Source: Terriglobia bacterium
GTDB taxonomy: Bacteria > Acidobacteriota > Terriglobia > UBA7540
DNA: 40,022 bases
Assembly: GCA_030041095.1 (NCBI GenBank)
Contig: JASHON010000112.1
Coordinates: 1 to 40,022 of the forward strand
Direction: 5' to 3'
Shown here: one piece after another, positions 19,708 to 22,226 of the stretch
Layout of the letters: each line of letters starts with the position of its first letter
Position numbering within the stretch: the first letter of the stretch is position 1
Translations under genes and position numbers: made by a program
The notes under the pieces: generated by a model
Told to the model about the DNA's origin: nothing
The model's database searches: none
The model's input: the letters and a program-made list of their open reading frames with translations, nothing else

Positions 19708-20637
19708 ACCTGCGCTCCCCCAACCAAGACAAATTGTCTACGCCTGTTATTATGGCGCAATTCTGTCCTATTTGTCCCCACCGTCTCAACCGAGTGTGAA
19801 ATAGTGTAACTGGTCTGGCGTTAGTAGGCCGCGGTTACAGCAGTCGTTGCGCATTGATAAGATCCCAAGGTTGGAAGGTGGATGGCGGAGGTTGTGTGCA
19901 AAAGACAACTGACTCTTCTTCGGAGAAGGCCGATAAATAATCTGGCCGGCTTGAGAATGAAGTTTTTTTTCACAAACGAAGCCGTTATGTGCCTAAGAAT
20001 GAGCAACATGATAAAATCCTAACCAAAAAACGAAGCCGTGAGAGCCGTTAGGTTATTGAAACTAAATATAGTTGTAAGTTTCCAAAGCCGTTAAGTGATT
20101 GAAAAACTGGGCTGTGACTTTCTAATTTGAAACCATTCCAGCGGACTTGCCGCCCCGATCTTCATCACTATCACTACAGTCCCGCATGCCGATCCACTCC
20201 CGATTAATGTTGTTGACTTATAACATATTACCATGTATTATAACTTTATCCCCCGTATGTGCCGTGGTTTTACACGGTCGAGTAAGTTTCGCCACCACAA
20301 ATTGCCGTCTCGCTGTGCCGTATGGAATCGCCGTTTTGTTTCCTCCGGGTGTCCGTTTGTCTGGGACAGTTCGTTGCGCCCGTGGAAGAAGCAGGGCTAT
20401 TCAAGCAATGCGGCAAATGAGGCTCATGATTCGGTTTCCGTAGGTAACAAGCTGACGCGCAGAATAGCTATCGAGTGCATAAATTAATTGATCGCATCAC
20501 AATGCAACAGGATGCATCTAACCAATCTGTAGTGGAAGGCTGATCCACTACAGTGAAAGAAGGGCGATGAAGTTTGGCGGAGGCAGCGGCAAGCTTCGCA
20601 GGTCCGCACTCGGTGGATGGAGGAACGGTCGGCGTCG
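19708..20637. other. AT-rich gene-free region with short direct repeats
   Basis: No recognisable gene is seen in 930 bp. Base composition between about 19900 and 20550 is clearly lower in G+C than the flanks. A 19-nt direct repeat, AGCCGTTA(G/A)GT(T/G)ATTGAAA, occurs at 20043-20061 and 20086-20104, with a partial copy AGCCGTTATGTG from 19980. Two open frames of 84-98 codons (20147-20487) overlap in different frames and match nothing. It could be a remnant of transferred DNA, a long regulatory region or an unannotated RNA. Confidence 0.5.
20527..20553. promoter_or_regulatory. Perfect inverted repeat before the small-protein/AAA+ pair
   Basis: CTGTAGTGGA (20527-20536) and TCCACTACAG (20544-20553) form a 10-bp perfect dyad with a 7-nt centre. 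No T-run follows, so it is more likely an operator or RNA hairpin than a terminator. It lies about 85 bp upstream of the small gene. Confidence 0.55.
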
Positions 20638-21066
20638 ATGGCATTCATTCGGAAGCGCGGCAACAGTTATTATCTCGTGCACAACGTTCGCAGGGACGGC
20701 CGCGTTCAGCAACTCCATCTGGCGTGCCTTGGCCCGCATCCGCGGATCGATGATCGCGTCATGAGCAGTGTTGCAGCGCGGCATCCTTTCGTGCAAGTGA
20801 ATTGGGAGACCGTGAAGGACCGTGCCGCACGCGATGCAGTGAAGCCCATCGAAAACGATTCGGACTATATCCGGAATTTAATCGATGAGCTTCGAAGCCT
20901 TCACATGAGCGTCGCAGAGCTACAGACGCCTGTCCTGGAAGTTCTGCGGGACCGGGAACTGCGATTGCAACTGATCGCGGAGCTTAAACTGCTCCGCGGC
21001 ACGCTTGACGTGAAGCTGAATGATTTCCGCAAAGCAGGTCCCGTGGACCTGCGGGGACGGTGTTAG
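20638..21066 (+). CDS. Unrecognised small protein paired with AAA+ ATPase
   Basis: From ATG 20638 the product has 142 residues. The N-terminal 40 look like a small beta domain rich in basic and aromatic residues (MAFIRKRGNSYYLVHNVRRD, then LHLACLG), somewhat like the arm-type or N-terminal segments of DNA-acting enzymes. The rest (about 75-130) is predicted helical and charged (YIRNLIDELRSLHMSVAELQ, LRDRELRLQLIAELKLLRG). No catalytic motif, signal peptide or membrane helix is visible. ATG 20617 would add seven residues; neither start has a good SD sequence. The AAA+ gene starts 14 nt downstream, so they are co-transcribed and probably act together. I do not recognise a family; nucleic-acid binding is only a guess from composition. 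Confidence 0.65.
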   Translation: MAFIRKRGNSYYLVHNVRRDGRVQQLHLACLGPHPRIDDRVMSSVAARHPFVQVNWETVKDRAARDAVKPIENDSDYIRNLIDELRSLHMSVAELQTPVLEVLRDRELRLQLIAELKLLRGTLDVKLNDFRKAGPVDLRGRC

Positions 21067-21080
21067 AAGGGAGGTCGAGG

Positions 21081-22226
21081 ATGACTTCAACTCAAACCCT
21101 CTTGGACCCGGAGGTGCGGAGCCCCGAGGTCCGTGATTTTGAAGGTGCGCTTCGCAAGCGCGTGGTGGGGCAGGACCGTGCCATTCGCCAACTGTCAAGG
21201 GTGTACCAGGTTCACCTGGCAGGCTTGGGCGCCCCGGGACGACCGATTGTGAATCTGCTCCTGCTCGGCCCAACGGGCTCAGGCAAGACACGTTTGGTAG
21301 AAGCCACGGCGGAAGTCCTCTTCGGCAAGGCGAGCGCCGTCCTCAAGATCGATTGTGCCGAGTTTCAGCACAGCCATGAGATTGCCAAGCTGATCGGTTC
21401 TCCGCCCGGTTACCTGGGTCACCGTGAGACTCAACCCATGATTACCCAGGAAATCCTGGACGAGCACCAAACCGATAAGCTGAAGCTCTCGTTGGTCCTC
21501 TTTGATGAAATCGAAAAATCCAGCGATGCTGTGTGGCAGCTCCTGCTGGGAATTTTGGACAAGGCGACGCTCACTCTAGGCGACAATCGCCGGGTGGATT
21601 TCTCCCGGGCCATGATCTTTATGACGTCAAACCTCGGCTCTCAGGAAATGTCCAAGCTCATGACCGGCGGATTGGGCTTTTCGAATACCGGCCCGGACGA
21701 CCCTCAAACTCTCGATCAGAAGCTCTACCGCACGGCGCGTGAGGCAGCACGCCGGAAGTTTGCTCCGGAATTCATGAATCGGATCGACAAGGTCATCGTC
21801 TTCCGTTCGCTTCAGCCTTTTCATCTGCGGCAGATTCTCGATATCGAGCTGCGTCGCGTTCAGCAACGCATCATGTCGTCTCCCAATGCCACGCAGTTTG
21901 TGTTCACGTGCACGGAGACTGCGAGAGATTTTCTGCTGGCGGAAGGAACGGATTCACAGTCAGGTGCACGCCATCTAAAGCGTGCCATCGAGCGCCATCT
22001 CGTTTTTCCGCTTTCCAACCTGATTGCGACCCGGCAGATCCTGCTTGGAGATTACATTACGGTGGATTACGACGAAGGCGTGCGGCGGCTGGCGTTTTTG
22101 AAAGAAGAGCAGGGCGCTTTGGTGGCCAAGACAGAAGAGCAAGCAGAGAACACGGCCCTCGCGCCGCTTCACTACGGCCAAGCGGCTGTCTCCACTGCGC
22201 TTGTCCGGCGCGCCCTGCCGGATTAA
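21081..22226 (+). CDS. Stand-alone ClpB/ClpC-D2-like AAA+ ATPase
   Basis: This 381-residue protein has one Clp-type AAA+ module and none of the N-domain, D1 or middle domain of ClpA/B/C. Motifs from ATG 21081: VVGQDRAI (28-35), Walker A GPTGSGKT (63-70), pore loop GYLG (110-113), Walker B VLFDEIE (139-145), sensor-1 TSN (182-184), a GGLGF loop (196-200), arginine finger NRID (233-236) and sensor-2 GAR (295-297). All residues for ATP hydrolysis and substrate threading are present. LGF sits where ClpA, ClpC and ClpX carry the ClpP-docking tripeptide. The tail (about 340-381) is unrelated to Clp proteins. GGGAGG upstream fixes the start; GTG 21060 would overlap the previous gene. Function as an unfoldase is inferred. 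Confidence 0.85.
   Translation: MTSTQTLLDPEVRSPEVRDFEGALRKRVVGQDRAIRQLSRVYQVHLAGLGAPGRPIVNLLLLGPTGSGKTRLVEATAEVLFGKASAVLKIDCAEFQHSHEIAKLIGSPPGYLGHRETQPMITQEILDEHQTDKLKLSLVLFDEIEKSSDAVWQLLLGILDKATLTLGDNRRVDFSRAMIFMTSNLGSQEMSKLMTGGLGFSNTGPDDPQTLDQKLYRTAREAARRKFAPEFMNRIDKVIVFRSLQPFHLRQILDIELRRVQQRIMSSPNATQFVFTCTETARDFLLAEGTDSQSGARHLKRAIERHLVFPLSNLIATRQILLGDYITVDYDEGVRRLAFLKEEQGALVAKTEEQAENTALAPLHYGQAAVSTALVRRALPD

Follow-up and report, generated by a model that had tools for sequence, protein, structure and literature searches.

Among the described systems closest to the locus analyzed here, the ctsR-mcsA-mcsB-clpC operon of Bacillus subtilis is controlled by CtsR, a protein degraded by ClpCP (PMC12634643). 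Skd3, or human CLPB, carries ankyrin repeats (PMC9934407), and ClpI of Actinomycetota is presented as a class of Clp proteins separate from ClpB and ClpC, some members of which bear LGF (PMC10149685). The present locus lies in the genome of a Terriglobia bacterium of the Acidobacteriota (GCA_030041095.1; 4.9 Mb, 207 contigs) on contig JASHON010000112.1, and the window analyzed was the whole of this 40,022-base contig. On the plus strand it contains, in order, an inverted repeat (the dyad), a small gene and a gene for a Clp-type AAA+ ATPase, with a gap of 14 nucleotides (nt) between the two genes. A preliminary description of the window had reported a pair of plus-strand genes, separated by 14 nt and preceded by a perfect dyad with 10-base-pair (bp) arms, and these coordinates were confirmed. 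We favor, with moderate confidence, the interpretation that in (soil) acidobacteria this unit serves as a proteolysis module under its own control, made up of a regulator and a one-ring unfoldase.

The two-gene unit and its dyad

The small gene occurred in 92 of the 299 genomes of the class, in family groups f1, f6 and f12. Another scan, of named records, found 92 relatives, and 80 named loci were kept from it; the named loci and the genome sets overlap in species and are not independent. In 75 of the 80 loci the small gene was followed, no more than 300 nt away and in the same orientation, by an ATPase open reading frame (ORF). In the other five the contig ended 115-333 nt past the stop codon, and the N-terminus of the ATPase was readable in all five. 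All 80 loci thus had the ATPase behind the small gene, five of them cut by contig ends, and this adjacency agrees with the pairing noted earlier. Neither of the two outcomes named beforehand as speaking against the preliminary description (a small gene not conserved beside the ATPase in relatives, or an LGF loop that is buried or variable) was observed, though many ATPase genes occur without the small gene. A second ATPase followed the first in 20 of the 75 loci. Viewed from the ATPase, the small gene was the commonest close same-strand neighbor within 6 kb (21 loci).

The dyad in the window is CTGTAGTGGA-N7-TCCACTACAG. When the 160-nt stretch preceding the small gene was shuffled 2000 times at the mononucleotide level, four shuffles gave arms of at least 10 with a spacer of up to 20. 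In its own genome the dyad was the sole match to CTGTAGTGGAN7TCCACTACAG at up to three mismatches; a second site in that genome (C81, N12 spacer) was inside a 775-amino-acid (aa) open frame. The pair GTAGTGGA-N6/7-TCCACTAC, with no more than a single mismatch per half, was found in 35 of 39 regions upstream of small genes, the present one included. The four without it were L018, for which only 73 nt of upstream sequence were available, and L020, L021 and L068, each with a single half. None of 60 ATPase genes without a small gene had the pair in the 400 nt upstream, where starts were set by the search expression, one gene had 311 nt of upstream sequence and one was a fragment (L082).

Of 79 named loci (one of the 80 was too short), 76 had a core, GT[AG]GTG-N10/11-CAC[TC]AC, in the 200 nt before the small gene, and this core was absent from the remaining 431,804 bp of the same loci; the G variant joined this pattern only after earlier data had shown it. 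The variable pair was A/T in 67 of the 76, G/C in 6, G/T in 2 and A/C in 1. The earlier pattern, allowing one mismatch per 8-mer half, matched 65 of the 79 upstream regions and once in 433,384 bp elsewhere. An unbiased count of 7-mers over the 79 upstream regions was headed by halves of the dyad: GTAGTGG (66), TAGTGGA (54) and ACACTAC (49).

Genome-wide searches with the pattern GTAGTGGN{8,9}MCACTAC covered 40 chosen f1 and f6 genomes, 39 with the small gene and one (G070) without. Of the 39, 36 had a site a short way before the small gene. Off-unit sites in these 40 genomes numbered 10, while the reversed control pattern gave 16 forward and 15 reverse. In 40 genomes without the small gene (6 from f6 and 34 from other families, G070 being in both sets) there were no sites, and the control gave 9 forward and 9 reverse. 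Seven of the ten off-unit dyads were inside mechanically picked ORFs and three were between them. Nine of the ten were treated as chance, and no regulon is claimed for them, because the reversed controls were as many; the exception is a site at a transposase gene, described below. Since the site is mostly single and at the unit, a dedicated local regulator is argued for, and since the dyad accompanies the small gene rather than the ATPase, the small protein is pointed to as a DNA-binding autoregulator.

The ATPase was more widely distributed, with matches in 189 of the 299 genomes of the class (E up to 1e-80) and in 40 of 297 genomes of the phylum (1e-68). Of the latter, 33 belonged to other classes, and in 31 of these the best match had 62-67% identity. 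The ATPase family is spread across Acidobacteriota. In an ATPase tree with 83 rows (the small gene present in 21 and absent in 59, plus 3 outgroup rows on long branches) the small-gene rows did not form one clade: seven changes were required, at least five of them forced by well-supported branches and some from paralogs. The small gene is therefore an accessory to a broader ATPase family and was gained repeatedly or often lost.

Several loci departed from the usual arrangement. Tandem pairs of single-ring ATPases were seen at L065, L066 and L067 (genomes G154, G146 and G070), and neither small gene nor dyad was found in G070. One lone ATPase (L130, genome G086) was nearly identical to one with a small gene; a small gene and dyad end another contig of G086, and this split of the unit is perhaps an assembly break. 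The closest named relatives of the small gene were in records whose titles read Acidobacteria, Terriglobia and subdivision 13. A record titled Betaproteobacteria (L201) holds an acidobacterial-type unit, and may be a mislabelled bin or a transfer.

The single-ring ATPase and its docking-like loop

In Pfam the ATPase matched AAA_2 (8.7e-36) and ClpB_D2-small (1.2e-14) over the cut-offs; other AAA models overlapped these more weakly, and no further Pfam domain over its cut-off lay outside the single AAA+ module. Its motifs were complete, comprising Walker A, GYLG, Walker B, sensor-1 TSN, R234 and sensor-2 GAR. There are 62 residues before Walker A, and therefore neither a D1 ring nor an N-domain. 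The Pfam matches and alignments, together with this short leader, uphold the earlier reading of a single D2-type module with full motifs, a GYLG pore loop and no N-domain or D1. The ClpA, ClpB, ClpK, ClpG and TssH models of NCBIfam matched only by their last part and far below cut-off, and the ClpX models gave 31.7 bits (cut-off 359) and 17.1 bits (cut-off 370.75). The closest solved chains were those of ClpC and of the D2 ring (NBD2) of ClpB. An AlphaFold2 model made with 55 family members had a mean predicted local distance difference test (pLDDT) score of 84, with the last 34 residues below 50. The sequence supports reading the ATPase as a minimal one-ring Clp unfoldase without N-domain or D1. 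The family also carries two signatures, GYLGHRET and CAEFQHSHE. The latter, at residues 92-99, has the form C-x4-H-x-H, and C92, H97 and H99 were invariant in 55 members.

The preliminary description had singled out GGLGF as a ClpP-docking-like loop. These residues (196-200) are indeed at the right position, between sensor-1 and the arginine finger, and their conservation was examined in an alignment of 81 ATPases of the family, which came from loci fetched at E up to 1e-60 and included L082, a 251-aa fragment. The tripeptide was LGF in 39, MGF in 26, IGF in 10, FGL in 3, FGF in 2 and MGY in 1, so that a phi-G-phi motif was kept in 81 of 81, also in those without the small gene. In a 55-row alignment (A2) G199 was conserved in 55 and F200 in 54, and from 201 to 207 no residue reached half. 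All nine members read from other classes had GGIGF or GGMGF. Loop residues 191-210 averaged a pLDDT of about 64 in the model; such low confidence would be as expected of a flexible loop.

One ClpP gene was found in the host genome, which by sequence also encodes ClpB-like, ClpC-like and TssH-like proteins. The phi-G-phi motif was present in the ClpC-like protein (as HLGF) and absent from the ClpB-like and TssH-like proteins. Because the motif is kept throughout the family and absent from these two, docking on ClpP is likely, and the conservation of the phi-G-F loop leads us to hold with good confidence that the ATPase would dock through it. A second copy of the ATPase elsewhere in the genome was 72% identical and had no small gene in front. 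In family f5 the ATPases (L159-L163) formed a separate subgroup on the tree; the docking loop read FGL or FGF in four of the five, and the C-terminal part was shorter in four of the five.

The small protein and similar N-domains outside the unit

The ORF of the small gene opens at 20617 (149 aa), and the 39 aligned sequences align at the ATG at 20638, which gives the 142 residues reported earlier; the stop codon ends at 21066, and some relatives start with GTG. No curated Pfam family matched the small protein over its cut-off, also when 39 members were scanned, and NCBIfam, PADLOC and PHROGs returned nothing at E up to 1. The Pfam searches of the 142-aa protein and of the 39 members gave no DDE domain match. 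No CtsR model was among the Pfam and NCBIfam matches at E up to 1, in libraries that we take to contain one. A profile of the family matched only coiled coils in the PDB (E 0.38 and worse), and Foldseek returned nothing under E 0.001 for the model. This AlphaFold2 model had a pLDDT of about 90 in residues 1-40 (the N-domain) and 73 overall, and the C-terminal half was modelled as helical with low confidence. The net charge of the N-domain had a median of +6 (range 2 to 10) over 39 members. Compared with the integrase arm domains 3rmp_C and 3jtz, its fold scored Z 2.8 over 47 residues (root-mean-square deviation 3.2-3.3), with unrelated rows level or better.

In genome G037 one off-unit dyad directly adjoins the GTG start codon of a gene that encodes a protein beginning with SFIRKIKKGNKIYLAEVENRRVEGKVVQRFIRYVG. 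This gene, cut by the contig end, encodes an IS1634 family transposase by NCBIfam (120.7 bits, cut-off 100), and in a single BLASTP comparison its N-terminus was identical to the small protein at 19 of 50 positions (E 8e-4). Relatives of the transposase gave eight matches in 5 of the 299 genomes of the class, and four copies beyond that in G037 had a readable start. A 76% identical copy (L314) had GTAGTG-N11-CACTGC 1 nt before its ATG; L312 had ATAGTG-N11-CACTAT, and L310 and L311 had ATGGTG-N11-CACTAT, all three running into the ATG as read by eye. Transposase relatives were found neither in viral contigs nor, at 1e-20, in plasmids. One Novosphingobium plasmid record encoded an IS1634-like N-terminus with a single GTGGTG upstream, and phages yielded none.

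The small-protein profile also reached five further genes in the 297 genomes of the phylum (E 3e-5 to 3e-4), encoding three long proteins and two shorter ones of 196 and 75 aa, the 75-aa protein near a recombinase-like gene. The long proteins (L246, L248 and L249) came from other acidobacterial families; two had TPR matches over cut-off and the third was alike by sequence, and all three genes carried exact GTTGTG inverted repeats upstream. The 75-aa stand-alone N-domain gene (L247, L255) was preceded by two direct GTGTAGTGCCTAACC copies.

The N-domain probably shares its origin with the N-terminus of IS1634-type transposases. A wider proposal is possible and is offered tentatively: the N-domain may be an undescribed DNA-binding module for GTNGTG half-sites on the own promoters of IS1634 transposases and some TPR proteins, domesticated in acidobacteria as autoregulator of a D2-only Clp protease, in a self-clearing regulator-unfoldase switch unrelated to CtsR.

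Coordinates of the unit and its motifs within the window
Feature	Position	Strand	Basis
Operator-like dyad, 27 bp	20527..20553		Perfect 10-bp arms; core GT[AG]GTG-N10/11-CAC[TC]AC conserved
Small gene, 142 aa, proposed DNA-binding autoregulator	20638..21066	+	Start from alignment of 39 sequences
Small-protein N-domain, residues 1-40, basic, predicted three-stranded sheet	20638..20757	+	AlphaFold2 model; likeness to IS1634 N-terminus
Single-ring Clp/Hsp100 D2-type AAA+ ATPase, 381 aa	21081..22226	+	Pfam AAA_2 and ClpB_D2-small; structural matches
Walker A GPTGSGKT, residues 63-70	21267..21290	+	Sequence and family alignment
Pore loop GYLG, residues 110-113	21408..21419	+	Invariant in 55 aligned members
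LGF tripeptide, residues 198-200, ClpP-docking-like loop	21672..21680	+	phi-G-phi in 81/81; low-confidence loop in model
Arginine finger R234	21780..21782	+	Invariant in 55-row alignment A2

A bactofilin-like gene and rpoC, named from their own sequences, flank the dyad and the two genes in the window. At other loci, genes read from sequence as SDR oxidoreductase-like and branched-chain aminotransferase-like lay 1.1-2.4 kb upstream (16 loci each), and an exported M48-type metalloprotease-like protein was encoded after the ATPase on the same strand at nine loci (L065, L066, L067, L068, L071, L084, L134, L142 and L143). None of these three kinds of neighbor was beside the unit in the window. At L105 the unit was 3-6 kb from genes named from sequence as tig-clpP-clpX-like.

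Proposed mechanism, alternatives and known systems

In the mechanism proposed here the ATPase would assemble into one hexameric ring that corresponds to the D2 ring of ClpC, as its sequence and model suggest. To judge from the conserved loop, the ring would plug into ClpP through phi-G-F and would unfold substrates and feed them to the protease. The small protein, probably as a dimer, would bind the dyad through its basic N-domain and control transcription of both genes; small gene and dyad occur together and similar half-sites precede other N-domain genes, both of which point in this direction, and binding of the dyad by the small protein seems likely to us. The loop would most likely be closed by the ATPase, which, with or without ClpP, might pull the small protein off the DNA or destroy it on demand, as ClpCP does CtsR. 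This last step is drawn by analogy only, and we regard proteolytic feedback on the small protein as doubtful.

The partner had been described earlier as an adaptor, a substrate or a nucleic-acid tether. The tether comes nearest to our interpretation; adaptor and substrate are not our first choice, and the dyad, which had been seen but not put to use, is now central to how the partner is read. As an adaptor, the small protein would bring substrates to the ATPase while another regulator bound the dyad. Such a role would fit the strict adjacency of the two genes and an ATPase without its own N-domain, and the helical C-terminal half of the small protein, modelled at low confidence, could bind the ATPase. 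However, the dyad tracks the small gene and not the ATPase, some off-unit genes with a similar N-domain carry similar half-sites, and the motifs of the ATPase are kept where the small gene is absent, which together make the adaptor improbable.

ClpX strips MuA from DNA, and single-ring ATPases remodel DNA complexes. The present ATPase could likewise work without ClpP as a remodeller, removing the small protein, or a related transposase, from the DNA to which it is bound, and the transposase-like N-domain of its partner would suit this role. The phi-G-phi motif, kept in every aligned ATPase even without the small gene, is hard to explain without ClpP, and we consider this explanation unlikely as well.

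The dyad could also act as an RNA hairpin in the 5' leader, affecting translation or RNA stability. In keeping with base pairing, at six loci, all from one lineage, the third pair of the core had changed symmetrically from A-T to G-C, and two G-T and one A-C intermediates were seen. Against pairing, five of the six core pairs were invariant over 65 sites, which were found at up to one mismatch per half, a search that favors invariance, and the pair adjoining the core was a G-A mismatch in 45 of them. The distance from dyad to start codon also varied, from 37 to 146 nt, and a hairpin is the least probable of these explanations. The small proteins of the same six loci share K9, E19, V26 and N33 in the N-domain, residues that are in the minority or absent in 67 others; this joint change of the third pair and the N-domain, within one lineage, is suggestive. 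We read the dyad as a DNA site for a dimer, while a protein site on RNA is a conceivable alternative.

Several points weigh against a self-regulated unit controlled by the small protein. Many lineages have the ATPase with neither small gene nor dyad. The units L219, L241, L244 and L068 have no exact core dyad, and G028, G112 and G116 have only mismatched sites at the unit. Off-unit sites differed between the two genome sets (10 versus 0); the reversed-pattern controls gave 16 and 9 forward matches. The fold comparison of the N-domain is weak; a ribosomal chain (9j9h_2) scored higher (Z 4.7) and unrelated proteins tied with the arm domains. The link between the N-domain and IS1634 comes from one comparison at E 8e-4. 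In a strict test for exact inverted GTNGTG, 4 of 10 N-domain genes (the three long ones and that of G037) were positive versus 301 of 20,000 random windows, a descriptive figure, as the test was devised after some of the sequences had been seen; the failures were L310, L311, L312, L314, L254 and L255.

Three other candidates were rejected. A mobile or phage origin was set aside since the small protein had no match at E 0.01 among 50,697 phage and 72,556 plasmid records, the ATPase had none among the plasmid records at 1e-60, and its 116 phage matches were all below 60% identity (33-37% among the ten matches listed). As to a defense system, PADLOC matches covered only parts of the AAA module. 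Against a toxin-antitoxin pair, many lineages have the ATPase but no small gene, and no toxin-like feature was seen in the ATPase.

The literature search, outside which most subscription papers lay, returned no title or abstract opening on this ATPase family, the operator or the small protein. Among known proteins, the ATPase is like the D2 ring of ClpC and ClpA in its D2 module, its GY-G pore loop and phi-G-phi between sensor-1 and the arginine finger, and unlike ClpC and ClpA it has no N-domain, D1 or M-domain and carries the signatures GYLGHRET and CAEFQHSHE. If this is true, the one-ring, D2-only unfoldase would be the simplest relative of ClpC and ClpA known to us, and would put to the test how much a D2 ring that has a docking loop can achieve by itself. 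To our knowledge, Skd3 (human CLPB) has no ClpP-docking loop. Like Skd3, the ATPase has one ClpB-D2-type module (7ttr chain, E 1.2e-27); unlike Skd3, it has no ankyrin repeats by Pfam, and it differs from the ClpB and Skd3 disaggregases in combining the absence of an M-domain or ankyrin repeats with a phi-G-phi loop. It is also unlike ClpX, in that it has neither the N-terminal zinc domain, of which there was no sign among its Pfam matches, nor a ClpX-type AAA+ module. ClpI, in contrast to the ATPase, is double-ringed (PMC10149685).

The small protein appears to resemble IS1634 transposases in its N-terminus, [MV]xFIRK...GKVxQ...LG, and the transposase copies read have a dyad of the [AG]T[AG]GTG-N11-CACT type at the gene start; unlike them, it is 142 aa long and has no DDE match. 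The operator gives a concrete handle on the small-protein family in the form of a predicted DNA site. Our best reading, by analogy, is that the logic of the unit would be like that of ctsR...clpC of Bacillus, with a regulator unrelated to CtsR. As in the ctsR operon, a small putative regulator gene comes first and a Clp ATPase gene last, with operator-like sites in front. Unlike that operon, there is no McsA or McsB gene between them and the ATPase is one-ringed; the small protein has no CtsR-model match, and whereas the CtsR operator is a heptanucleotide direct repeat serving a regulon, the present one is an inverted GTAGTG repeat with one exact site in most genomes. If this reading is right, the unit would be a second independent origin of the design in which a repressor gene precedes a Clp ATPase gene, here with a transposase-like regulator.

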